Shown here piece after piece: positions 1,176 to 19,880 of a stretch of DNA of 33,950 nt. The translations under genes were made by a program, and so were the position numbers. The stretch comes from Alphaproteobacteria bacterium (lineage in GTDB: Bacteria; Pseudomonadota; Alphaproteobacteria; Sphingomonadales; Emcibacteraceae). The notes beneath the pieces were generated by a model. That model did not search any database, had not been told where the DNA came from, and was given only the letters and a program-made list of their open reading frames with translations. The stretch is taken from assembly GCA_013152755.1 (NCBI GenBank), contig JAADFR010000057.1:1-33950 (forward strand). Reading direction: 5' to 3'. Each line of letters opens with the position of its first letter. Position 1 is the first letter of the stretch.

Positions 1176-1352
1176 TTATTTCTTTTTAATAATTCTGGCC
1201 AGAATGATAGCTACGGCGGCGCCGGCAGCAAACATGCCGAATGTGCCGGGTTCTGGAACAGCGGTTGAATTCGGAGAGCCAGCAGCGGCCAATGAGACAA
1301 AACCCAATAGTGAAATGGTTGCTAAACCAGCTTTAATACCTATATTTTTCAT
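1176..1352 (-). CDS. 58-aa PEP-CTERM sorting-domain microprotein (absent from the ORF track)
   Basis: Reverse-complement translation MKNIGIKAGLATISLLGFVSLAAAGSPNSTAVPEPGTFGMFAAGAAVAIILARIIKKK*; N-terminal signal peptide (..LAAA/GS), VPEP motif, hydrophobic TM stretch, basic C-terminus; RBS aaagga about 8 nt upstream of ATG. Confidence 0.88.
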   Translation of the reverse strand: MKNIGIKAGLATISLLGFVSLAAAGSPNSTAVPEPGTFGMFAAGAAVAIILARIIKKK

Positions 1353-1388
1353 TTTTACATCCTTTTTTTAAATTTAGTGATGTTTAAT

Positions 1389-1405
1389 ATGCAATATGCA
1401 TACCA
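1389..1405 (-). promoter_or_regulatory. Candidate sigma-54 (-24/-12) promoter of the PEP-CTERM microprotein gene
   Basis: Minus-strand TGGTATGCATATTGCAT: GG-N10-GC spacing, TTGCAT -12 element, about 36 nt upstream of the start codon. Confidence 0.65.
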
Positions 1406-1496
1406 AAGTTAGATGTACCTAATGTAACATAGGGTTAGGGGAAGGCGGCAACATTTACATGCTAAATACTGTAAAGAATCCTGACAGTTTAGGGCT

Positions 1497-6895: not shown

Positions 6896-8284
6896 ATGAT
6901 AAGAATATTTAAACATTACGTTCCAAGGTCCCTGTTTATATTGGGGGTGCTGGAAAGCCTTATTCTTATGGCCGCTATATGGGCAGCCCTGAATTTGCGT
7001 AATTATCAGGTTGGTTTTGAAAGGCCTGTTTTTTCACAGTATGCTGTTGAAATTTTTTCTTTTGCCTTCGTGGTTTATGTGGTCCTGCTGGCAACGGGAT
7101 TATATCAGCTTGAGGCCGGAAGGGATATGCGTGTTACGGTTATCCGTCTGGTTACAAGTCTCGGATTGTCGTTCATTTTTCTTTCCGTTGTACTTTATAT
7201 GTTACCAGACATTGAGTTATGGCGTAGTGTGATTATTATTGGTTTGTTATTCTCTTTTGTTGGTATATTGCTCAGCCGTTATATCTATATGCATGTTGTC
7301 GATTTAAAGGGGTTGAAAAGAAGGGTTCTGGTGTTGGGGGCGGGTGAAAGAGCCAAAATGGTGTATAATTGTGGCGCCATCGCATCCAACGAAGTGGAGT
7401 TCGTGGATTTTTTGCGGGTAAATGCTGCTGAAAATGTCATTGAAGATGCAAAGGACTATCAGGCAGGGCATTCCTTAAGAGAATATGTGGATCAGCAAGC
7501 GGTGCAGGAAATAGTGGTCGCCATTGAAGAAAGGCGCGGTGCGTTGCCCATTGATGAACTCCTGGATTGTAAAATGAAAGGGTGCCACATCATTGAGGCG
7601 ACGACATTTATCGAGCGGCAGTCCGGCACGGTCAGCTTGAAAAATGTAAACCCAAGCTGGATTGTATTTTCGGATGGCTTTGGCGGCGGTGGTAATCTTG
7701 ATCTTGTTCTGAAGCGTATCTTTGATGTGACGGCAAGTCTTTTGCTGTTAATTCTGAGTATGCCAATTTTAATTATTACCGCTATTCTGGTGAAAATAAC
7801 CAGCCAGGGTCCTGTTTTTTACCGACAGGAAAGGGTTGGGTTGAATGGAAAATGCTTTTATGTATTAAAATTCCGCAGCATGACTGTCGACGCGGAGGCG
7901 GACGGCGTACCCAAATGGGCGGCTAAAAATGATGTCCGGGTAACTGGGGTCGGGCGGATAATCCGGGCCTCCAGAGTTGATGAAATACCGCAGATTTTCA
8001 ATGTGTTAATTGGCAGCATGAGTTTTGTCGGGCCCAGGCCGGAACGCCCGTTTTTTGTTGGACAGCTGGAAGAAAAAATCCACCTATATAGCGAACGACA
8101 TCGGGTAAAGCCGGGCATTACAGGCTGGGCTCAGTTGAACTATCCCTACGGTGCATCAGAGGAGGATACTAAACGCAAACTGGAATATGACCTTTATTAC
8201 ATAAAAAATTACTCTTTATTTCTGGATTTCCTTATACTGATACAAACAGTTCGTGTTGTGTTGTGGCCGGATGGCGTGAGGTAA
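6896..8284 (+). CDS. PEP-CTERM system-associated sugar transferase (EpsB family; polyprenyl-phosphate hexose-1-P transferase)
   Basis: N-terminal MIRIFKHYVPRSLFILGVLE typical of the TIGR03013-type family; C-terminal bacterial sugar transferase domain KRIFDVTASLLLLILSMPILIITAILVKITSQGPVFYRQERVGLNGKCFYVLKFRSM...RPERPFFV...KPGITGWAQLNYPYG. Confidence 0.93.
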   Translation: MIRIFKHYVPRSLFILGVLESLILMAAIWAALNLRNYQVGFERPVFSQYAVEIFSFAFVVYVVLLATGLYQLEAGRDMRVTVIRLVTSLGLSFIFLSVVLYMLPDIELWRSVIIIGLLFSFVGILLSRYIYMHVVDLKGLKRRVLVLGAGERAKMVYNCGAIASNEVEFVDFLRVNAAENVIEDAKDYQAGHSLREYVDQQAVQEIVVAIEERRGALPIDELLDCKMKGCHIIEATTFIERQSGTVSLKNVNPSWIVFSDGFGGGGNLDLVLKRIFDVTASLLLLILSMPILIITAILVKITSQGPVFYRQERVGLNGKCFYVLKFRSMTVDAEADGVPKWAAKNDVRVTGVGRIIRASRVDEIPQIFNVLIGSMSFVGPRPERPFFVGQLEEKIHLYSERHRVKPGITGWAQLNYPYGASEEDTKRKLEYDLYYIKNYSLFLDFLILIQTVRVVLWPDGVR

Positions 8285-8294
8285 GGCGGATTTA

Positions 8295-10412
8295 ATGGAA
8301 ATTGGATTAGGTAATATAGGTTTTTTAACCTTTGGGCTGGCTGGGTTATCCTATGCGGTATTGGCGATTTTCCTTGTTTTCAAGGGACAGAACCGTCACG
8401 AGAACCTGTGGCTGACCGGGGCCGTTATAATCAGTGCTATTTGGCTGGTTGCTACGGCGGCGGCTTTTTCCGGCTTTCGCCCAATAATATATTTTTTGCC
8501 TTTTCTGGAAGTCCTGCGCGGGGCAACATGGATTGCCTTCTTTACGGTTTTGCTGTCCCGGATATGGACAATGCAGGGAAATGAGAAACATGCCTATAAT
8601 CTGAAATTAGCCCTTTTTGTTTTCCTGGGGGCAATTTTACTTATCAGTCTGATGCAAACCAGCTATCTTCTTGGATATACAAGCCTTCAGATTACTGGCG
8701 GCTTTAACGTATATCGCAACCTTATCATCTGTATCATCATCTTTTTGCTGGTTGAGAATCTCTATCGCAATTCCGCAGAGGAGGGGCGATGGGGGATTAA
8801 GCTTTTATTGCTCGCGGTAGCTGGCCTGTATATATATGATTTTCTTTTGTATGCGGATAGAATTTTATTCACCGCGATCGGGCAGAAACTGTTTGAAGCA
8901 CGCGGTATGGTGAATTTCCTTATTGTGCCTATTCTGGCCATTGCGGTTGCCAGAAACCCCACATGGAAGTTAAACATTAAAGTATCCCGGAAGATGGCTT
9001 TTCATACCATCACTCTGATTGGTACAGGTGCTTATTTAATTGGTATGTCGGCGGCGGGATATTTCTTGCAGAATTACGGCGGAAAATGGGGAAATATACT
9101 ACAGATTACCTTCATTCTTGCGGCTTTGCTGGGGTTGGTGATTCTCATATCCTCCGGAAAGTTCAGAGCCCTCACCCAAGTGCTTTTGACAAAACATTTT
9201 TTTCAGTATCGTTATGATTATCGTGAAGAATGGCTTAAATTTATCAGCACCATATCCGCAACGGGGGAGCATTATGACCTCAGGGAACGTGTTATCAAGG
9301 CGCTTGCGGATGTGATGGACAGTTCCGGGGGGGCTTTGTGGTTGTGTGAGCAACCAGATATTTACCAGTTGGCGGCCAAATGGAACTTTCAGTTTGATGC
9401 GGAAAATGAGCTCTTGTCCGAGGATCAATTCATCAGCTTTCTTGAGCGGGAAGAATGGATTGTTGATCTGAACAAGGAAAGAGATGGGGGTAGATCAAAG
9501 CATAAGGATTTGCTGACACCGGAATGGTTGCTGGGCAATGCCAAATTCTGGCTTGTTCTACCATTAATTCATTTGGGAAAGCTTGTGGGTTTTGTCGTTT
9601 TGCTTCAACCGCGTGTGAAGAGTAGCCTGAATTGGGAAAGCCGGGACTTGTTGAAAACCATAGGGCGGCAAACGGCCAGCTATCTGGCGGAGCAAATTGC
9701 AGAAATGGCTCTTGCAGAATCCCGTGAATTTGATTCTTTTAATCGAAAATTTGCTTTTGTCGTTCATGATATTAAAAATTTAACCAGCCAGTTGTCACTC
9801 ATTGTGAAGAATGCGGAGAAATATGCCGATAATCCGGAATTTCAAAAGGACATGATATTAACGATTCAGGATTCTGTGGCTAAAATGAATAACCTGCTTT
9901 CCCGAATTACGGTTGTGCAGGAACCCTCTCTGGAGAAGGTGGATGACAGCCTCAATATCGGCAAGATGATGAAGGAAATAGTACGGGATTACCATCATGG
10001 CGGTTTGAATATTACGTATGAGGGCAAGGGGGATGGTATTGATGTTTATGCGGATGCGGAAAGCCTTAAGACAATTTTTATGCATCTTATCGAGAATGCC
10101 CGTGAGGCTTGTGTCGAGGATGATATTGATATTAAACTTGACCTGTCTCGTAAAGGGGCGTTTGCTCTTATTAAAGTGAGCGACAATGGTCATGGGATGG
10201 AACAGGATTTCATTCATAATGAGCTGTTCAGGCCCTTTAGATCTACCAAAGAGAACGGATATGGCATTGGGGCCTATGAAAGCCGGGAAATGATAAAACG
10301 TCTGGGGGGCCGATTGGTGGTAAAGAGTGAAAAAAATGTTGGAACGGTTATGAAAGTGTACTTGCGTTTGGTGAGTGACGATAATGAGAGCTTAGGCGCA
10401 GGGGAAAAATAA
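8295..10412 (+). CDS. prsK: PEP-CTERM system histidine kinase PrsK
   Basis: Multi-TM N-terminus, GAF-like middle, H-box FAFVVHDIKNLTSQLSLIVKNAEKYADNPEF, HATPase DNGHGM and FRSTKENGYGIGAYESREMIKRLGG; immediately upstream of prsR. Confidence 0.93.
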   Translation: MEIGLGNIGFLTFGLAGLSYAVLAIFLVFKGQNRHENLWLTGAVIISAIWLVATAAAFSGFRPIIYFLPFLEVLRGATWIAFFTVLLSRIWTMQGNEKHAYNLKLALFVFLGAILLISLMQTSYLLGYTSLQITGGFNVYRNLIICIIIFLLVENLYRNSAEEGRWGIKLLLLAVAGLYIYDFLLYADRILFTAIGQKLFEARGMVNFLIVPILAIAVARNPTWKLNIKVSRKMAFHTITLIGTGAYLIGMSAAGYFLQNYGGKWGNILQITFILAALLGLVILISSGKFRALTQVLLTKHFFQYRYDYREEWLKFISTISATGEHYDLRERVIKALADVMDSSGGALWLCEQPDIYQLAAKWNFQFDAENELLSEDQFISFLEREEWIVDLNKERDGGRSKHKDLLTPEWLLGNAKFWLVLPLIHLGKLVGFVVLLQPRVKSSLNWESRDLLKTIGRQTASYLAEQIAEMALAESREFDSFNRKFAFVVHDIKNLTSQLSLIVKNAEKYADNPEFQKDMILTIQDSVAKMNNLLSRITVVQEPSLEKVDDSLNIGKMMKEIVRDYHHGGLNITYEGKGDGIDVYADAESLKTIFMHLIENAREACVEDDIDIKLDLSRKGAFALIKVSDNGHGMEQDFIHNELFRPFRSTKENGYGIGAYESREMIKRLGGRLVVKSEKNVGTVMKVYLRLVSDDNESLGAGEK

Positions 10413-10413
10413 T

Positions 10414-11769
10414 ATGACAAAAAAAATAAGAAGCTTGCTCGTGGTTGAGGATGACCCGGGCCTTCAGCGGCAATATAAATGGAATTTCGAAAATTATAAT
10501 ACCACCATTGCCGGGACGCGGGAAGAAGCCATTGCGTTTTTTAAAAAAGAAAAGCCGGCGGTTGTGACCCTTGACCTTGGGTTGCCGCCTGACCCTGATG
10601 GCACTTCGGAAGGTTTCGCCACATTGGAAGAAATTCTTAAAATCGCCCCCAATACAAAAATCATTGTGGCCAGTGGTCATGGCACACATGAAAGTGCTTT
10701 GAAAGCCATTGCCATGGGGGCCTATGATTTTTATCAGAAACCGGTTGATCCGGATCAGCTTGGACTGATTGTAGAGCGGGCATTCAGGCTATATGATCTG
10801 GAAGAAGAAAACCTGCGTCTGTCCCAAAATAACAAGGCTTCTGGCTTTCAGGGACTGATTACCGGCAGCCAGGATATGTATAAGGTTTGCGACATGGTAG
10901 AGCGTGTCGCCCCGGCGAATGTGACGGTTTTGTTGCTGGGGGCTAGCGGCACCGGTAAAGAACTTTTGGCCCGGGCCGTCCATAACCTCAGTGACAGAAG
11001 CCACGGTAAATTCGTTGCCATAAATTGTGCGGCCATTCCGGAAAACCTTCTTGAAAGCGAGTTATTCGGCTATGAAAAGGGGGCGTTTACCGGCGCGGTA
11101 AAACAAACCAAAGGTAAGATTGAACTGGCTGAGGGGGGAACATTGTTCCTTGATGAAATTGGCGACCTTCAATTTTCGTTGCAGGTAAAACTTCTTAGAT
11201 TTCTACAGGAGCGTGTGGTTGAACGCATCGGTGGGCGTCAGGAAATTGCCGTGGATGTTCGCGTGGTTTGTGCAACCCATCAGGATATTGAAAAAGATAT
11301 TACGGAGGGGAGATTCCGCGAAGACCTTTATTACAGGTTAAGTGAAATTGTCATCAATATTCCTTCATTGGCAGAGCGTGAAGGCGATTCTATACTTCTG
11401 GCTAAAACCTTCCTGACCAAGTTTAATGATGAACTGAAAAAACAGATTAAAGGCTTTACGCAGGATGCGCTCAGTGCCATTGCGTCCTATAACTGGCCCG
11501 GAAATGTCCGTGAACTTGAAAATCGGATTAAAAGATCTGTTATCATGTGCAACGGAAAAAAGATAACTGCAGATGATCTGGAACTAAGTCAAGGCGAGGG
11601 CGAAGCCGCTGTTTTGAACCTAAAAGCCGTGCGGGAAAATGCAGACATAAAAGCCATAAATATGGCAATGGCACAGGCCAGCGGCAATGTAAGTCAGGCT
11701 GCTAAAATATTGGGTATTAGCCGCCCGACATTTTATGGCCTGATTAAACAATATAATATAAACATATGA
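10414..11769 (+). CDS. prsR: PEP-CTERM system sigma-54-dependent response regulator PrsR
   Basis: Receiver domain (VVEDDPGLQRQYKW), AAA+ Walker A GASGTGKELLARAVH, sigma-54 contact loop GAFTGA (YEKGAFTGAVKQ), GNVRELEN, C-terminal Fis-type HTH. Confidence 0.96.
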   Translation: MTKKIRSLLVVEDDPGLQRQYKWNFENYNTTIAGTREEAIAFFKKEKPAVVTLDLGLPPDPDGTSEGFATLEEILKIAPNTKIIVASGHGTHESALKAIAMGAYDFYQKPVDPDQLGLIVERAFRLYDLEEENLRLSQNNKASGFQGLITGSQDMYKVCDMVERVAPANVTVLLLGASGTGKELLARAVHNLSDRSHGKFVAINCAAIPENLLESELFGYEKGAFTGAVKQTKGKIELAEGGTLFLDEIGDLQFSLQVKLLRFLQERVVERIGGRQEIAVDVRVVCATHQDIEKDITEGRFREDLYYRLSEIVINIPSLAEREGDSILLAKTFLTKFNDELKKQIKGFTQDALSAIASYNWPGNVRELENRIKRSVIMCNGKKITADDLELSQGEGEAAVLNLKAVRENADIKAINMAMAQASGNVSQAAKILGISRPTFYGLIKQYNINI

Positions 11770-11800
11770 CCTATATCGTTATTACCATGAAGGAAGAAAA

Positions 11801-14581
11801 ATGAACAATCTGGCAATAATATCAATCGCATTGATTTTGGGAACATCATTTCCTGCATATGCGGCAGTCGGTAGTGACAAGAGTAGTGCCTATAAGAGGG
11901 ATGCGGATAGCTATCTTAAAAAAGGCGATGTGAAAGCAGCTATTATTCAGTTGAAAAACGCGGTTGTTGCCGACCCTAAAAATCCTGAAAACAGGATTGC
12001 ACTGGCGGACTTATACCTTCAGGTCAACAATGCCCTTTCAGCCGAAAAAGAATATTTACGCGCGATTGACCTTGGCATGGAACCATCAAAGGTCATTGTC
12101 AACCTCAGCAAGGCCCGCCTGCTTCAACGTCAGTTTCAAAAGGTATTGGATACATTGCATGAAGAGGATGTCAGTGATGATGTGAAGGGGGAAGTATATC
12201 TAATTATCGGGAATGCTTATCAGGGATTGGGTGATCTGAACAAGGCCCTTGAATATTTTGAAAAGGGTGAAGGTGTTAAAGGCAAGAATGATAAAATTTC
12301 CATTGCCATTGCACAGATATATTATTTCCAGAAAAATATAGAAAAAGCAGAACAGAAGGTCGATGAAGTTCTTTCCCTCAACCCAAAAAATGTCAAAGGC
12401 CTTATCCTAAAGGGTGAGTTGGTCAATGCGGCTTCCGGTCCGGAAAAATCCTTGCCATATTTTCAGCAGGCATTGGAATATAGTCCCCGGAATATTCCGG
12501 CATTGTTTAAAGTCGCCGCCGTATTATTTGATTTGAAACGCTCAGATGAGGCTTTGGAAAAACTTGAGGCAATATTTACAATAGTGCCCAATCATCCCTT
12601 GGCCAATTATTTGTCAGCGGTTATTTACGCCCAAAAGAATGAAATGGTAAAAGCAGAAGAGTATCTTGATGCTTCTGGTTCGGCACTGGATGATTTTCCC
12701 GGCGCATTGATATTAAGAGGGGTGATGAATTACTCTAAACAGAGCTATGCACAGGCTATTTATTTTCTGGATAAACTGATCAAGATTACGCCGGATAATA
12801 TCGTAGCCCGGCGGTTGTTGGGCGCCTCTCTTTTGCGTCAGAATGAAGCGGAACAGGCCATTAATATTTTGATGCCTATTGTACAAAAGGGACAGGCAGG
12901 CTCCGTTGTTTATGCCTTGTTGGGCAGTGCCAACATGAAGATTGGTGATTTCGAAAAAGGGACTGATTTTTTTCAGAAAGCCGTGGATATTAAACCCGGA
13001 GAAAGTAAGCTGAAGACCCAATTGGCCCTAAGCAAGCTGGCCGGTGGGGATGCGGAAGCAGCTCAGGCAAATCTGCAGGAGGTTCTGGAAAAAGACCCAA
13101 ACTCAAAACAGGCTGCGGTATTTATGACCCTGATTTCTTTACGGGAAAAGAAGTATGATGAGGCTATTGTCAATGCGGACAGGCTGCTTAAACAATCTGC
13201 GGTAAATCCTATCGGCTATAACCTGAAGGGTGTTGCCTATAAGGAAATGGGGAAAATGCAGGAAGCCAGGGCACAATTTGAAAAGGCCTTGAAAGTTTCT
13301 CCTAATTATCATTCCGCCTCAATGAATCTGGCTAAGCTTGAAGCACAGGTCGGTAATGTTGAGCAGGCAGTTAAAATCTATCAGGATATTCTTAAAGCGG
13401 ATGAAAATCATGAAGGTGCGCTTATGGCATTGGCTGGCTATTACAGAAGTAAGAAAGATTTTGCCAAGACTGAGGAATATTATCAGCGGGCTATCACAGC
13501 TGCGCCGAATAATATACGAAGCCGGATAAAATTTTCTGAGTTCTTCCTGAGCCAAAAGAAACTTGACCGGGCTAAATCTGTTGTACAGCAGTTGGTTTCT
13601 GACTTTCCCGATCTAGCGGCGGGTTATGAGGCGAACGGGAATATTGATCTAATGCGCAAGGATGTGGCCTCTGCCGTGGTAAATTTTGAACGGATGGCGG
13701 CGCTGCTTGGTGATAATGCCGGGGCATTTCAAATATTGGGCCGGGCGCAATTGAGAGCAGGCGATCCGATGGCGGCTAAAAAAAGCTTTACCAAAGCCCT
13801 GTCAATGACTGACAAGAAAGCACCAATATTGATGGACCTTGCAGGATTGGAATCAAGTCAGAAAAATTATACCGAGGCTCAGGCTTATCTTGATCAATTA
13901 AAGAAAATAGATGAAAAAAGCCCCGCTCCATATGTATTGGAGGGACGCTTGCTCGGTCTGCAAAAGAAATATGCCAAGTCACTGGAAAGTTTCTTGCGGG
14001 CATCTGATCTGGGTGCGGAAGGTAGTCCGTTTACGGTTGATCTGACTCGAGCCTATATTAATATGGAACAAGCTGATAAGGCGGTAGCTATAATGCAGTC
14101 GTGGCTGTTGAAGAAAAAAGATGACCTTGCGGTACGTCATATATTGGCTGGTCATTATCTTCAGGAAAAAGTCTATGATAAATCTATAAATCAGTATGAA
14201 ATTATTTTGAGCATGAGTGCCAAAAATCCGATTGCCCTGAATAATATCGCCTGGCTCTATAGTCAGACCGGGCAGGATAAGAAAGCTCTGCTGACTGCGG
14301 AAAAGTCCTATAACTTATTCCCGGATGCGGCGCCGTTCATTGATACATATGCCTGGATACTGGTGGAGCAGGGGCAGAATGAAAAGGGATTGGCGTTGTT
14401 ACAAAAAGCCGTGGCGAAAGCACCAAAAATGGTGGAAATTCGTTACCATCTGGCGGTGGCTCTCAATAATGCGGGCAAAAAGACGACAGCGCGTAAGGAG
14501 CTTGAAACCGTCATTTCAAGCGGTGAAGTATTCTCTGAGATAGACAAAGCGCGCAAGCTGATGAGAGAATTATCAAAATAA
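11801..14581 (+). CDS. prsT: PEP-CTERM system TPR-repeat protein PrsT
   Basis: 926 aa, signal peptide MNNLAIISIALILGTSFPAYAA, tandem TPR motifs throughout; position directly after prsK-prsR. Confidence 0.92.
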   Translation: MNNLAIISIALILGTSFPAYAAVGSDKSSAYKRDADSYLKKGDVKAAIIQLKNAVVADPKNPENRIALADLYLQVNNALSAEKEYLRAIDLGMEPSKVIVNLSKARLLQRQFQKVLDTLHEEDVSDDVKGEVYLIIGNAYQGLGDLNKALEYFEKGEGVKGKNDKISIAIAQIYYFQKNIEKAEQKVDEVLSLNPKNVKGLILKGELVNAASGPEKSLPYFQQALEYSPRNIPALFKVAAVLFDLKRSDEALEKLEAIFTIVPNHPLANYLSAVIYAQKNEMVKAEEYLDASGSALDDFPGALILRGVMNYSKQSYAQAIYFLDKLIKITPDNIVARRLLGASLLRQNEAEQAINILMPIVQKGQAGSVVYALLGSANMKIGDFEKGTDFFQKAVDIKPGESKLKTQLALSKLAGGDAEAAQANLQEVLEKDPNSKQAAVFMTLISLREKKYDEAIVNADRLLKQSAVNPIGYNLKGVAYKEMGKMQEARAQFEKALKVSPNYHSASMNLAKLEAQVGNVEQAVKIYQDILKADENHEGALMALAGYYRSKKDFAKTEEYYQRAITAAPNNIRSRIKFSEFFLSQKKLDRAKSVVQQLVSDFPDLAAGYEANGNIDLMRKDVASAVVNFERMAALLGDNAGAFQILGRAQLRAGDPMAAKKSFTKALSMTDKKAPILMDLAGLESSQKNYTEAQAYLDQLKKIDEKSPAPYVLEGRLLGLQKKYAKSLESFLRASDLGAEGSPFTVDLTRAYINMEQADKAVAIMQSWLLKKKDDLAVRHILAGHYLQEKVYDKSINQYEIILSMSAKNPIALNNIAWLYSQTGQDKKALLTAEKSYNLFPDAAPFIDTYAWILVEQGQNEKGLALLQKAVAKAPKMVEIRYHLAVALNNAGKKTTARKELETVISSGEVFSEIDKARKLMRELSK

Positions 14582-14602
14582 ATTGTTATGTGAGTAAGTT
14601 TT

Positions 14603-15799
14603 TTGGAAATTCTTTTTCTGAGCCATCGTTTTCCTTATCCACCCACACGCGGGGACAAGATCAGATCATTTAATATGGTCAAGCATCTTCATGAGGCGGG
14701 GCATAAAGTAACCGTTGCCTCACTTGCCCGTACGGCAGAGGAGGCGGCGGATTGTCAGGGTATTCGGGACTATTGTGATGATTACGTCATTTGCGAGGTC
14801 AGGAACCCGGTTCAGGCGGTGCGCATGGGGCTTCGCCTGCTCACATCTGAACCATCGTCCATGGGATTCTTCTATTCGTCAAAATTACAAAAAGAGGTTA
14901 ACCGCCTACTGTCGGAAAAGAATTTTGATCTGATTGTGGTTTTCAGTTCCACGGCGGCGCAATATGTGTCCCATGTGACGGATATTCCAAAATTTCTGGA
15001 TTTTTGTGATATGGATAGCCAGAAATGGCTGGCCTATTCCGCCTTCAAAAAATGGCCTATCAGCATGGGCTATCGTTTGGAGGGCGGCAAGCTGGAACGG
15101 GAAGAAAAGAAGATCTGTCATCAATTTGACCTGTGTAGCTGTGCCACTGATTTTGAGGTTGATACCTTGGACGGTTATGGCACCGGTGTGGCCAGCGCCT
15201 TTTTTCCCAACGGGGTTGATTTTGATTTTTTCACGCCGGGAGAGGGCGATTATCCACGTCACAGCATCAGCTTTGTCGGGCGAATGGATTATTTCCCCAA
15301 TGAAGAATGTGTCCTGTCCTTCTGTGAGCAGATTTTTCCTCAATTACAGGCGAAATACCCCGATGTTACCTTCACGGTTATCGGAGCCTGTCCCCCGTCC
15401 AATATCATGGCTCTAAATGACATGCCGGGGGTGACGGTTACGGGCACAGTGGATGATATTCGTACTTACGTGCGCAATTCTGCGGTAATGGTAACGCCCC
15501 TTGAGATTGCCCGGGGAACCCAGAATAAGATTCTGGAGGGCATGGCCATGGGCGTGCCGGTCATCAGCAGCCGCACGGCGGCGCGGGGGGTTGATGCGGT
15601 GGTGGGGGAACATATCCTTGCGGCCACAACGCCCGATGAATATGTGGCCCATATATCAAGATTATTCGATGATGAGGGGGAACGTGACCGATTGGCAAAG
15701 GCCGGACGTGAGCGGGTAACAACTCATCATAACTGGCCCCGGGCCATGTCTTTGTTTAATGAGGCCATCGAAAGATGCCTCACTATTGCTAAAGGGTAG
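14603..15799 (+). CDS. Glycosyltransferase, PEP-CTERM/exosortase-A associated (stp1-type, TIGR03087-like)
   Basis: MEILFLSHRFPYPPTRGDKIRSFNMVKHL N-terminus; GT4-type C-terminus IARGTQNKILEGMAMGVPVISS; TTG start. Confidence 0.9.
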   Translation: MEILFLSHRFPYPPTRGDKIRSFNMVKHLHEAGHKVTVASLARTAEEAADCQGIRDYCDDYVICEVRNPVQAVRMGLRLLTSEPSSMGFFYSSKLQKEVNRLLSEKNFDLIVVFSSTAAQYVSHVTDIPKFLDFCDMDSQKWLAYSAFKKWPISMGYRLEGGKLEREEKKICHQFDLCSCATDFEVDTLDGYGTGVASAFFPNGVDFDFFTPGEGDYPRHSISFVGRMDYFPNEECVLSFCEQIFPQLQAKYPDVTFTVIGACPPSNIMALNDMPGVTVTGTVDDIRTYVRNSAVMVTPLEIARGTQNKILEGMAMGVPVISSRTAARGVDAVVGEHILAATTPDEYVAHISRLFDDEGERDRLAKAGRERVTTHHNWPRAMSLFNEAIERCLTIAKG

Positions 15800-15807
15800 T
15801 AGATTTA

Positions 15808-17016
15808 ATGCGCATATTGCATGTATTTGACCATTCGATCCCGCTCCATAGCGGCTATACCTTTCGCAGTTATCAGATTTTGCGGGAGCAAAGGGCGTTG
15901 GGCATCGAAACTCTGCATGTGACTGGTATCAAGCATCTGAATCCTGAGGGGCCAGAGGATGTGGTGGAGGGCTTGAAATTTTACCGGACAACGAATTATA
16001 ACAGGCTGCTGGCCAAGCTCCCGGTGATTGGTCAGTATGAGGTGGTCAGAAGCCTGAAAAAGCGGCTTCGGCAAATTTTAAAGACTGAGAAAGTGGATGT
16101 TATTCAGGCCCATTCGCCCATGCTGAACGGTATGGCGGCTGTGGCCGTGGGCAAAGAATTTAATATCCCGGTTCTCTATGAAATTCGCGCTTTCTGGGAA
16201 GATGCGGCTGTTAGCCTTGGTACCAGCAAGGAAGGTGATTTACGTTACCGCCTGTCCAAGGCCATGGAGACCAAAGTGGCGCGTGCGGCAGATGCGGTAA
16301 CGGTAATTTGTGACGGCCTGAAACAGGATTTGATTTCACGGGGTATTTCGGCGGAAAAAATAACTCTGATCCCCAATGCGGTGGATATATCAAAATTTTC
16401 CGGCCCGGAAAAGCCCGATCCGAAACTCAGAACAAAATTGGGTCTGGACGGCAAGACAACGCTTGGCTTTATCGGGTCATTCTATGATTATGAGGGGCTG
16501 GAAATTCTGCTGGAAAGTCTGCCGGTCATTATCAGGCAGGTGCCGGATGTAAAGCTCCTGCTGGTGGGCGGCGGCCCGGTGGACGAGGAGTTGAAAGAAC
16601 AGGCCAAATTATTCGGTATAGAGGACCATGTCATGTTTACCGGACGGGTGCCCCATGACAAGGTACAGGATTATTACAATCAGGTGGATATTTTTGTCTA
16701 CCCACGCAAGAAAATGCGCCTGACGGATCTGGTGACACCGCTTAAACCGCTTGAGGCCATGGCCCAGCATAAGCTAGTGGCGGCATCAGATATTGGCGGA
16801 CATAATGAGCTGATTGAAGATGGTAAAACCGGGGTGTTGTTCAAGCCGGATAATTCTCTTGCGCTGGCCCGGACTATCATTGAGCTGCTCAACAAGCGCG
16901 AAAGCTGGCCTGAAATGATCGCAGGCGGGCGCAAATATGTTGAGGATGTTCGGAACTGGAAAAATTCCATTGCCAATTATCCGGCTGTTTTTGACAGAAT
17001 AGTTAAGAAGCCATAA
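15808..17016 (+). CDS. Glycosyltransferase, PEP-CTERM/exosortase-A associated (Daro_2409-like, TIGR04063-like)
   Basis: MRILHVFDHSIPLHSGYTFRSYQILREQRALGIETLHVTGIKH; GT4 signature region PLKPLEAMAQHKLVAASDIGGHNELIEDGKTG. Confidence 0.9.
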   Translation: MRILHVFDHSIPLHSGYTFRSYQILREQRALGIETLHVTGIKHLNPEGPEDVVEGLKFYRTTNYNRLLAKLPVIGQYEVVRSLKKRLRQILKTEKVDVIQAHSPMLNGMAAVAVGKEFNIPVLYEIRAFWEDAAVSLGTSKEGDLRYRLSKAMETKVARAADAVTVICDGLKQDLISRGISAEKITLIPNAVDISKFSGPEKPDPKLRTKLGLDGKTTLGFIGSFYDYEGLEILLESLPVIIRQVPDVKLLLVGGGPVDEELKEQAKLFGIEDHVMFTGRVPHDKVQDYYNQVDIFVYPRKKMRLTDLVTPLKPLEAMAQHKLVAASDIGGHNELIEDGKTGVLFKPDNSLALARTIIELLNKRESWPEMIAGGRKYVEDVRNWKNSIANYPAVFDRIVKKP

Positions 17017-18157
17017 CGCCCCAGATTTTGGCATAGGCCGCAAACATGCGGCTCTGATCATAAGTCTTCCTGACATGTCGTTTATTGTTACCACCGATTT
17101 CCTGCCTGAGCGGTTCATTTGCGGTCAATTCTGTGAGCGCTGCGGCAAAGGCCTGATCATCTCCGGCTGCTGTGATGAAAGGTTTGTTTGCGGTGGAGAC
17201 AATGAATTTCACATCGCCCACGTCCAGCCCGACAACGGGCAAGCCTGCGGCCATGGCCTGATTGACGGAATTGGGCATCTGTTCCGTGTCAGACGACAGC
17301 GCATAAATATCCAGATGACCCAGAGCCATGGCCGGATTATCAATATGGCCGGCAAGATATATCCTGTCCTGCAAGCCATAACCTGTGATCATCTGTTCCA
17401 GTTTTGACCGTTCATTGCCTTCGCCCATAATGATCAGGCTGGTCTTTTGGTCAGGGTGTGCCTGAACAAGATGATTAAAGGCGGTAATCAGGCGCGGCAG
17501 ATTCTTTTCCGGACGTAACGGCGTCATGGTGCCAATGGTAATTTCGCCTGCTTGTTTGGTAAAATGGGGAATGATGCCTTCCTGCGGGGGGGAGGCATAA
17601 AGGTCACAATCCACACCGTTCGGGGTATAGAGGATCTTGTGATCTGGAATTTTCCAGTCCGAAGCACATATTCTGACCAAAGTGTTGGAGGGCACTACAA
17701 TGCCCTCAATATTACGCAGGGCAAGGCGGCGGAACCAGTTTCGGCGACCGATAGTCCCATTGGCCTCTTCCGGCCCAAAACCGCTTTCCAGATGGAAATG
17801 GCGACAGATGGGGTTGACGCTGTTGGCCATGGCCCATTCCGTTGACCCCCAGTTATAGGTCAGCAGTAAATCCGGCTGCATTTCGCGGAGAATTTTACGG
17901 TAATGCCATAGACGTTTGAGCATATTGCCCTCAGCGGCCCCTCCAATATCCGGGATCTCATAGATGACATTCTTCTTCAAACGCGATTCGCAGGTGTAAA
18001 TACCGTCCGTTGACAATAGGGAATGACGCGCCAAAGGCCCGAAATGATTCATCAGGTAAGAAATGCGAATGGGGACGCCACCATGGGCAAAAGACGGAAT
18101 AACATGAAAAATATGTGGTACATCAGCCGTTTTTTTGTCTATTACTGACTTTGTCAT
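17003..18157 (-). CDS. Glycosyltransferase family 4
   Basis: HVIPSFAHGGVPIRISYLMNHFG..., GTMTPLRPEKNLPRLITAF, ALSSDTEQMPNSVNQAMAAGLPVVGLDVGDV. Start set at MTKSVIDKK (18157); the longer ORF to 18352 would overlap the divergent gene's promoter and start. Confidence 0.88.
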   Translation of the reverse strand: MTKSVIDKKTADVPHIFHVIPSFAHGGVPIRISYLMNHFGPLARHSLLSTDGIYTCESRLKKNVIYEIPDIGGAAEGNMLKRLWHYRKILREMQPDLLLTYNWGSTEWAMANSVNPICRHFHLESGFGPEEANGTIGRRNWFRRLALRNIEGIVVPSNTLVRICASDWKIPDHKILYTPNGVDCDLYASPPQEGIIPHFTKQAGEITIGTMTPLRPEKNLPRLITAFNHLVQAHPDQKTSLIIMGEGNERSKLEQMITGYGLQDRIYLAGHIDNPAMALGHLDIYALSSDTEQMPNSVNQAMAAGLPVVGLDVGDVKFIVSTANKPFITAAGDDQAFAAALTELTANEPLRQEIGGNNKRHVRKTYDQSRMFAAYAKIWGVMAS

Positions 18158-18296
18158 TTTTTTCTTTTGTTTTTGTGCGACCATAAAGTGGCATATTAAC
18201 TTTATTTTGTTAAAATAGTAGAAATTTACATATTTTTCAAAGAAATATGGCAATAAGCTGTTTTCCCGGGAACAGGGAAAATAAAACAGGAGGGTA

Positions 18297-19880
18297 TTGC
18301 TTGTGTCGAGAAATTTAACATTCTTTATTTTAGGACTGACGGCCGCCGTCATAGCCTATATTTTTGCACCGTCATTGATCGGGGTGCTGGAATTTCTGCT
18401 TTCGGAAAGACTGCCCCGCGAATTTACGCGCCTGATGCAGAATAACGACCTTGTGGTATTAGCCGGATATGTCAGCCTGTTTGGCCTGTCATTCTTCCTG
18501 TTGTATCTTATCTTTCCGGTTGCCTATGTCTGGTATCATATCAATTCCGCAAAGGGGATCGTTGGTGAATTGCCTTTGATCAGTAATGGAATCAAGCGAA
18601 CAGACAAAAAAACTTTTCTGGGAAAATTAAAGGGTCTGGGCTTTATTGAAAGACTCGCTGAGGCCTATGGGCCTTATCTCATTCAGGGACCGGAAGAAGA
18701 AGTAAAACCGGAGAACCTGAAAAAACTGCGTTTGACAGGCCCCCGCGCCAAGATTGAAAAAATTGTCATTGCCCCTGTAAGTGCCGCTGTTCCGGCAGAG
18801 TCCATATTTAATGTGGAGAGTATGGTGAGTGATAACCTGCGGCTAGGCTTTTTCACTATTTTTGCCCGCCTGATGGTTGGGGCAGGGGTGGTCTGTCTGG
18901 CAATTTCGTTAATTTCATTTTCTATTGTAAAAGGAGAGGACGGTCAGACCTTGCTTGCTGCCCTGCAACCGGGGCTGGTGTCTTTGCTCTATTTATTAAT
19001 AGCCGCCGTGATTTTGTCAGGGGGGAGCCATTTGGTTAGCCTGGGACTATCTCATAAGGCCGGGGAATTTGCCCGAATGATTAATGGCCTGTTTTACCAA
19101 AATAACTGGCAGCAGGATTTGGCCCGTATTACGACCCACCTTGAAGGGAGCACGGATAAATTTGAAACTATTCTGAAAGACAGCCTTCATAAACCGCTGA
19201 AAGAAATTTCTACGGCGGTTAAATCTCTGTCGGTGGAACAGGAAAAGAAACTGGATAATATCCTGTCAAAGACGCTGGAGAATTTTGCCGTAAATATGGT
19301 GAAGAAAACAGGTGCCGATACTGTGGCCCTGAACAAAGCGCTGAAAGAGGCGAACCTGTCAGCGGAACAGATGAAGAAGCAATTTACCGGCGCCAATGCG
19401 GACTTTGCCAAACAGATGGATAAACAGTCGGCCGCCATAGCGAAACATTTGTCTGACATGCAGAAGGTTTTGGCTAACAGTGAAAAGGCAACGCAGGCCG
19501 GGGCAGAAAAAATAATATCCAAGCTGGCAACACAGGTTGAAAATACCCACAAGAAATTCGGGGATTACATTGAGAGCAACCTGAAAAGGCTGGATGAAAA
19601 ACAAAAGAAAATAGAAAATACGACCAGCGACAAGGACGGTATTCTGAAAGACCTGCATGATACCGCAAAGGATCTTGCGACCATTTCAAATGCCTCCGGG
19701 ATTTTGCTGGAACGGTTTATTTCCCTGTCCGTTGAACTGGATGTAGTGCTCAAGAATATTCAGGAAAATAATATTGGCCAAGATAAGGGGGATGCGCAGA
19801 AGCGCGACAAACTTAAATCGGCCATGATGAAGCTGAAGAAAATCAACAAGGATAAAATTGGCGAATTGCCGGATATGTAA
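18297..19880 (+). CDS. Uncharacterised membrane protein with MotA/TolQ-like TM region and long C-terminal coiled coil
   Basis: N-terminal hydrophobic segments, second TM pair (LMVGAGVVCLAISLISFSIV; PGLVSLLYLLIAAVILSGGSHLVSLGL), then about 270 aa of K/E/A-rich heptad-like helix. Start TTG 18297 or GTG 18303. Confidence 0.75.
   Translation: MLVSRNLTFFILGLTAAVIAYIFAPSLIGVLEFLLSERLPREFTRLMQNNDLVVLAGYVSLFGLSFFLLYLIFPVAYVWYHINSAKGIVGELPLISNGIKRTDKKTFLGKLKGLGFIERLAEAYGPYLIQGPEEEVKPENLKKLRLTGPRAKIEKIVIAPVSAAVPAESIFNVESMVSDNLRLGFFTIFARLMVGAGVVCLAISLISFSIVKGEDGQTLLAALQPGLVSLLYLLIAAVILSGGSHLVSLGLSHKAGEFARMINGLFYQNNWQQDLARITTHLEGSTDKFETILKDSLHKPLKEISTAVKSLSVEQEKKLDNILSKTLENFAVNMVKKTGADTVALNKALKEANLSAEQMKKQFTGANADFAKQMDKQSAAIAKHLSDMQKVLANSEKATQAGAEKIISKLATQVENTHKKFGDYIESNLKRLDEKQKKIENTTSDKDGILKDLHDTAKDLATISNASGILLERFISLSVELDVVLKNIQENNIGQDKGDAQKRDKLKSAMMKLKKINKDKIGELPDM

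Follow-up and report, generated by a model that had tools for sequence, protein, structure and literature searches.

A 58-residue PEP-CTERM protein gene and its membrane hydroxylase partner in Alpha- and Gammaproteobacteria

The window analysed here, a 33,950-nucleotide stretch, belongs to a 2.9-Mb draft alphaproteobacterial genome in 191 contigs (G000). A sequence-only reading of this DNA had proposed that it contains a minimal 58-aa PEP-CTERM gene. That reading gave no strand; the minus strand, read from position 1352 to 1176, encodes exactly that sequence, and stops interrupt the plus-strand reading of the same interval. A ribosome-binding site (AAGGA, 1360–1364, minus strand) lies 7 nt 5' of the ATG. 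The N-terminal 24 residues (1281–1352, minus strand) form a predicted Sec signal peptide, recognised by inspection and the -3/-1 rule, with MKNIGIK, a hydrophobic core and AAA before a glycine; by the same by-eye criterion, an AxA cleavage site followed by G, T or S recurs among the homologs. At the C-terminus, residues 33–58 (1179–1256, minus strand) comprise the PEP motif, a hydrophobic helix and a final KKK. This region passes the curated cut-offs of two PEP-CTERM models, with 24.7 bits versus 20.7 for PF07589 (residues 31–53) and 18.6 versus 16 for TIGR02595. Between signal and anchor there is no surface domain, a usual though not obligatory part of such proteins, and the mature segment ahead of PEP consists of the eight residues GSPNSTAV (1257–1280, minus strand), in agreement with the remnant of 8–10 residues predicted earlier. 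Judged from these sequence features, the ORF is a genuine PEP-CTERM protein gene, to which we refer as micro-PEP. The next gene on the same strand, 30 nt downstream (330–1145), encodes a 271-aa integral membrane enzyme of the fatty acid hydroxylase family (PF04116, 96.9 bits versus a cut-off of 31).

Upstream of the micro-PEP ORF, the minus strand carries a PEP-CTERM box and presumed PrsR site, TGTCAGGATTCTTTACA (1470–1486, within ACTGTCAGGATTCTTTACAGT). The pattern TGTCRGNNTTNTTTACA matched only at this position of the 34-kb window (1470–1486, minus strand), with a chance expectation of 0.01. A match to the sigma-54 -24/-12 promoter, TGGTATGCATATTGCA (1390–1405, minus strand), follows 64 nt past the box. 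Of 167 PEP-CTERM genes from proteobacteria, 99 have been described as preceded by a TTTACA-containing motif with a sigma-54 site 32–92 nt later, and PrsR was named the likely activator (Haft 2006, PMC1569441); RpoN dependence was later demonstrated for one gene of this kind (PMC9850573). In the genome studied here, the arrangement of box and sigma-54 site precedes 9 of the 21 other PEP-CTERM genes. The -24/-12 element is also present at micro-PEP homologs; box and sigma-54 site together occur at 16 of 22 micro-PEP loci, with 0 expected from shuffles, and the spacers between them cluster near 41, 51 and 62 nt, a spacing that fits an activator acting from one face of the helix. By these sequence motifs, the micro-PEP gene is part of the PEP-CTERM regulon.

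The genome contains 27 PF07589 matches including micro-PEP, whose open frame of 63 compares with 175–554 aa for the other 26. It also encodes the exosortase that the sequence-only reading presupposed, as its single PF09721 match: XrtA (TIGR03109, 309.1 versus a cut-off of 208), located outside the window on another contig (C102) and adjoined by TIGR03016, TIGR03015, TIGR03006 and TIGR03019. The window itself carries, on the plus strand, an XrtA/PEP-CTERM exopolysaccharide and regulation locus (6896–17016) with TIGR03013, PrsK, PrsR, PrsT, TIGR03087 and TIGR04063, within which lie two XrtA-system glycosyltransferases. PrsK (8295–10412, plus strand; TIGR02916, 654.7 bits) is the histidine kinase and presumed regulator of the system, and PrsR (10414–11769, plus strand; TIGR02915, 700.2 bits) is the sigma-54-dependent PEP-CTERM-box response regulator, presumed to activate the operon. 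At the position where stp2 might be expected there is a glycosyltransferase (17003–18352, minus strand) scoring below the TIGR03088 cut-off (165 versus 409 bits). Also beside this locus is a 527-aa protein with membrane and coiled-coil-like character and no convincing Pfam match (18297–19880, plus strand).

With the 58-aa peptide alone as query, a search of 101 related genomes gave homologs of the same small size: one of 59 aa in G011, a tandem pair of 56 aa each in G012 and one of 50 aa in G017, which belongs to another genus. Orthologs of 50–59 aa thus exist in two genera of the family. All of these copies lie between moaE and the hydroxylase gene; the sequence-only reading had reasoned that a degraded stub should have much longer homologs at the syntenic position, and every one of them is as short. 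A contig scan with micro-PEP had the G011 contig (MAG NORP51) as its sole match. The dN/dS of the whole gene was 0.37 in comparison with G011 and 0.15 with G012, and for the PEP-CTERM part it was 0.17 and 0.03, respectively, indicating purifying selection that is strongest on the anchor. The gene looks expressed, and the earlier view that it is not random decay is supported. In another relative, G013, a deletion of several hundred bases (L244, C11:611000–614500) extends from just past the box into the hydroxylase gene: micro-PEP is lost together with its promoter core and the N-terminus of the hydroxylase, and the box persists along with a hydroxylase remnant that is open over 204 codons. The XrtA exosortase of G013 has been retained despite the loss of the cassette.

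Weaker matches in other families (G041, G047 and G052) came from loci where this gene pair has unrelated neighbours. We then ran a peptide profile on 399 genomes from the phylum, with no regard to neighbouring genes, and its best outside match was a 51-aa gene in a member of another class (G720), with a hydroxylase as the next gene. Altogether, these neighbour-blind searches brought the number of alpha- and gammaproteobacterial genomes with a short signal-plus-anchor gene to 22. In 21 of them the gene that follows directly, with the same orientation, is of the PF04116 type, a count in which related genomes are not independent. The profile used later derives from linked examples and may therefore overlook short PEP-CTERM genes whose anchors are different. 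The gap to the first plausible start of the hydroxylase is usually below 100 nt and at most ~200 nt, and the linked pairs occupy about 16 gene contexts as counted from the neighbours seen. The sequence-only reading had suggested checking whether the short spacer and the position next to the hydroxylase are conserved: both are, the spacer between the signal peptidase site and PEP being 5–9 residues long in all 26 linked genes.

The exception among the 22 genomes is G1008 (L189/L267). Its short PEP-CTERM gene has a full box and sigma-54 promoter, with no hydroxylase seen nearby, and its spacer measures 11 residues with a second PEP inside.

Other candidates were rejected as micro-PEPs. Fragments from G783, G975 and G957 have no signal peptide, and most low-scoring tblastn matches contain stops. 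A signal-plus-helix protein located between hisF and hisE in G049 (L115, 1444–1671) has VPEG instead of PEP, and a signal-plus-anchor protein at a contig end in G1120 (C120, L236), with its neighbour out of view, has PAPG in its place.

As controls, we scanned 38 other hydroxylase loci, consisting of hydroxylases of relatives, the second hydroxylase of the window itself and two plasmid-borne hydroxylases, and a short signal-plus-anchor gene was absent from all 38. A frame flagged at one of them (L266) was dismissed as it lies inside the hydroxylase gene. The plasmid collection that supplied the two plasmid controls contained no micro-PEP. A tree of 52 hydroxylases placed 30 unlinked sequences, those of the same order among them, together in a supported clade that excluded every one of the 21 linked ones; one other unlinked hydroxylase (L213, G1120) groups near the linked ones. 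Some 500–1000 nt from the gene of the latter, an ORF (1357–2355 of L213) has a micro-PEP-like N-terminus running into an unrelated soluble domain and reads like a fusion or an assembly artefact.

The linked peptides share a common anatomy. The mature segment usually begins with G and ends with V or I (for G011, G887 and G1320b, an AxA site before G read by eye replaced the computed cut), and we found no obvious shared modifiable residue among these segments. Three genes have SEP or DEP as their motif and the others PEP, and E-P is kept in 26 of 26. Compared with 66 conventional tails, the micro anchors have fewer GL steps (0.33 versus 1.47), fewer R, more K and more I/V/F/Y/M/W. On these sequence measures they are a distinct subclass of PEP-CTERM tail, and their handling by XrtA could consequently be abnormal. 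Tandem copies occur in three lineages, with two in G012, two in the G041/G047 lineage and three before a single hydroxylase in G1320 (L220). The two copies of G012 have nearly the whole anchor in common and differ in signal and mature segment; those of G1320 have similar anchors and different mature segments.

An exosortase was found in 19 of the 20 hydroxylase-linked genomes tested (20 of the 21 linked genomes, G1195 being left out). It was not detected in the 95% complete assembly of G1396 despite the presence of micro-PEP and hydroxylase (L216/L268), where the box is absent too; this pair is possibly a relic or an exosortase-independent use of the cassette. Co-occurrence is non-discriminating within the gammaproteobacterial family, because 51 of 66 control genomes of that family also carry an exosortase.

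The partner enzyme has ten His-box histidines that are invariant over 20 aligned sequences (H106, H110, H119, H122, H123, H137, H177, H200, H203 and H204). Among curated models, OlsE (NF052566) came closest for each of the linked hydroxylases tested, with 50–90 bits; at 60.5 bits versus a cut-off of 475, the enzyme of the window falls outside OlsE. Its AlphaFold2 model has a mean pLDDT of 92. Neither a search of PDB sequences with the hydroxylase profile nor a fold search with that model found a match to a solved relative. Given its membership in the PF04116 superfamily, its substrate is likely a lipid.

We regard it as almost certain that the two genes form an operon and that micro-PEP and the hydroxylase are functionally linked. 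The way in which they would work together is a separate matter, for which we propose the following mechanism. The operon would belong to the PrsK-PrsR-RpoN regulon, with PrsR bound at 1470–1486 activating the RNA polymerase-sigma54 at 1390–1405, where the motifs for both are present. Sec would export the peptide, and a cut behind AAA would leave GSPNSTAV beyond the inner membrane, still joined to the PEP-CTERM helix. XrtA, as may be expected from its family, would recognise PEP, strip the helix and hand the peptide of ~8 residues to an acceptor. The integral membrane His-box hydroxylase would, as the conserved pairing suggests, hydroxylate a lipid that either serves as the acceptor or forms part of the product. 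What results would be a very short peptide, secreted or on the surface and probably linked to a lipid, made alongside the XrtA exopolysaccharide. Such a cassette would follow the logic of precursor-peptide clusters, where the anchor acts as the conserved tail, the 5–9 residue segment as the product and the hydroxylase as the tailoring enzyme. The tandem copies with divergent mature segments favour a product role of this segment, and the PEP-CTERM model scores, the conservation of E-P and the exosortases in 19 of 20 genomes favour the link with the exosortase; the pair in G1396 and the atypical anchors count against the mechanism. Weighing these points, we consider this particular mechanism, an exosortase-processed micropeptide with a dedicated hydroxylase supplying or tailoring its lipid partner, to be plausible at slightly short of an even chance.

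The main rival explanation assigns the peptide to the enzyme itself, as a small membrane subunit. The 34 residues left after signal peptidase cleavage would form a single helix, N-out and C-in, and would bind the hydroxylase, stabilise it or regulate it; the PEP-CTERM tail would be an inherited anchor and the exosortase unneeded. Small bacterial enzyme subunits are typically of about this size. The strict adjacency to one enzyme gene, the distinct subclass of the anchors and the G1396 pair would all suit such a subunit, and so would the G013 deletion, a single event that took micro-PEP and the hydroxylase N-terminus and spared XrtA. However, E-P has been retained in every hydroxylase-linked copy from both alpha- and gammaproteobacteria, the promoter belongs to the regulon of exosortase substrates, and the 38 related hydroxylase loci do without such a partner. 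In addition, two or three tandem copies per hydroxylase with divergent mature segments would be unusual for a stoichiometric subunit. We therefore view a subunit role as unlikely, though deserving serious consideration.

The micropeptide might instead be the hydroxylase's own substrate or carrier, with the peptide or a lipid tail hydroxylated before release by the exosortase. The one-to-one pairing of the genes, with one to three peptide copies per enzyme, does recall precursor-peptide clusters, but the His-box sites of PF04116 enzymes generally face the cytoplasmic side and the mature segment would be periplasmic, besides offering no obvious common residue to modify. This makes a substrate or carrier role quite improbable. 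Even less can be said for an exosortase occupancy or titration factor, one of the roles suggested in the sequence-only reading: a signal peptide and an anchor with little else would indeed be a minimal exosortase ligand, but the fixed downstream hydroxylase, near-invariant across the genomes, would be left unexplained and many genomes with an exosortase have no micro-PEP gene, so that we consider it very improbable. Finally, although the gene is very short and directly 5' of another, we find it scarcely credible that it is a translated leader of the hydroxylase mRNA or, as also suggested earlier, a stub of a longer PEP-CTERM gene, a reading refuted by the equal-length syntenic orthologs and their dN/dS and disfavoured by the near-invariant hydroxylase pairing: small size and 5–9 residue spacer are kept across 22 genomes, selection constrains the anchor most, the gene has its own promoter and box, and what is conserved is the protein architecture rather than the RNA sequence.

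Among the roles listed in the sequence-only reading, the released or lipid-linked micropeptide accordingly fits best, the chemistry being the part that stays conditional. The exosortase-processed micropeptide with its dedicated hydroxylase might even represent a widespread class of exosortase-made, RiPP-like micro-lipopeptides, each with a signal peptide, a product of 5–9 residues, a removable PEP-CTERM tail and its own lipid hydroxylase, a generalisation that we put forward as possible and somewhat doubtful.

Several known systems can be compared with this cassette. Like XrtA substrates (PF07589/TIGR02595; Haft 2006, PMC1569441), micro-PEP has a signal peptide, PEP with a hydrophobic helix and a basic tail, a PEP-CTERM box and sigma-54 promoter, and XrtA with PrsK/PrsR/PrsT in the genome. 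It differs from them in its mature part of 5–9 residues, in its divergent anchor and in having a hydroxylase gene as operon partner, whereas PEP-CTERM genes mostly form operons of one gene. PepA (NF033554; pepA of Aquincola, PMC9850573) is likewise an RpoN-dependent PEP-CTERM gene beside genes of the system, a dependence that micro-PEP shares by motif; the NF033554 model spans 261 positions, of which micro-PEP matches the tail only (12.8 versus a cut-off of 80 bits). The ornithine-lipid headgroup hydroxylase OlsE belongs, as the partner does, to the PF04116 membrane His-box family, but the partner scores far below the OlsE cut-off and falls in a distinct group of the tree. The closest working analogue of the proposed mechanism, in which a sorting enzyme is combined with dedicated lipid enzymes, comes from the archaeosortase ArtA, whose substrates need the lipid-synthesis enzymes PssA/PssD for lipidation and processing (PMC7157517). 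That system is archaeal and has a large S-layer substrate, and no single micropeptide is coupled to its lipid enzymes. N-acyl amino acid synthases have also been linked to PEP-CTERM/exosortase systems (Craig 2011, as reported in PMC11631085), providing another lipid enzyme genetically tied to an exosortase, in that account an acyltransferase instead of a hydroxylase. In the open literature, subscription journals being outside the search, we found no publication on a pairing of PEP-CTERM with a sterol desaturase or fatty acid hydroxylase, and no description there of a near-absent mature part as a use of the exosortase system. We know of no micropeptide partner of the N-acyl amino acid synthases. 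PEP-CTERM proteins and PF04116 enzymes are both known already; what appears to be new is that they are paired and that the system serves to make a micropeptide.

We take the pairing to suggest that two genes make up a module for producing an unusual, short peptide of the cell surface. The cassette occurs in two proteobacterial classes, and gene callers with a 60-aa floor overlook micro-PEP. To our knowledge, the acceptor of bacterial exosortases is not established. A mature part of 5–9 residues can be read whole by mass spectrometry, which would allow both cut site and acceptor to be determined directly, and the fixed hydroxylase partner points to a lipid. The cassette also ties a class of 'sterol desaturase family' enzymes to the PEP-CTERM/exopolysaccharide system.
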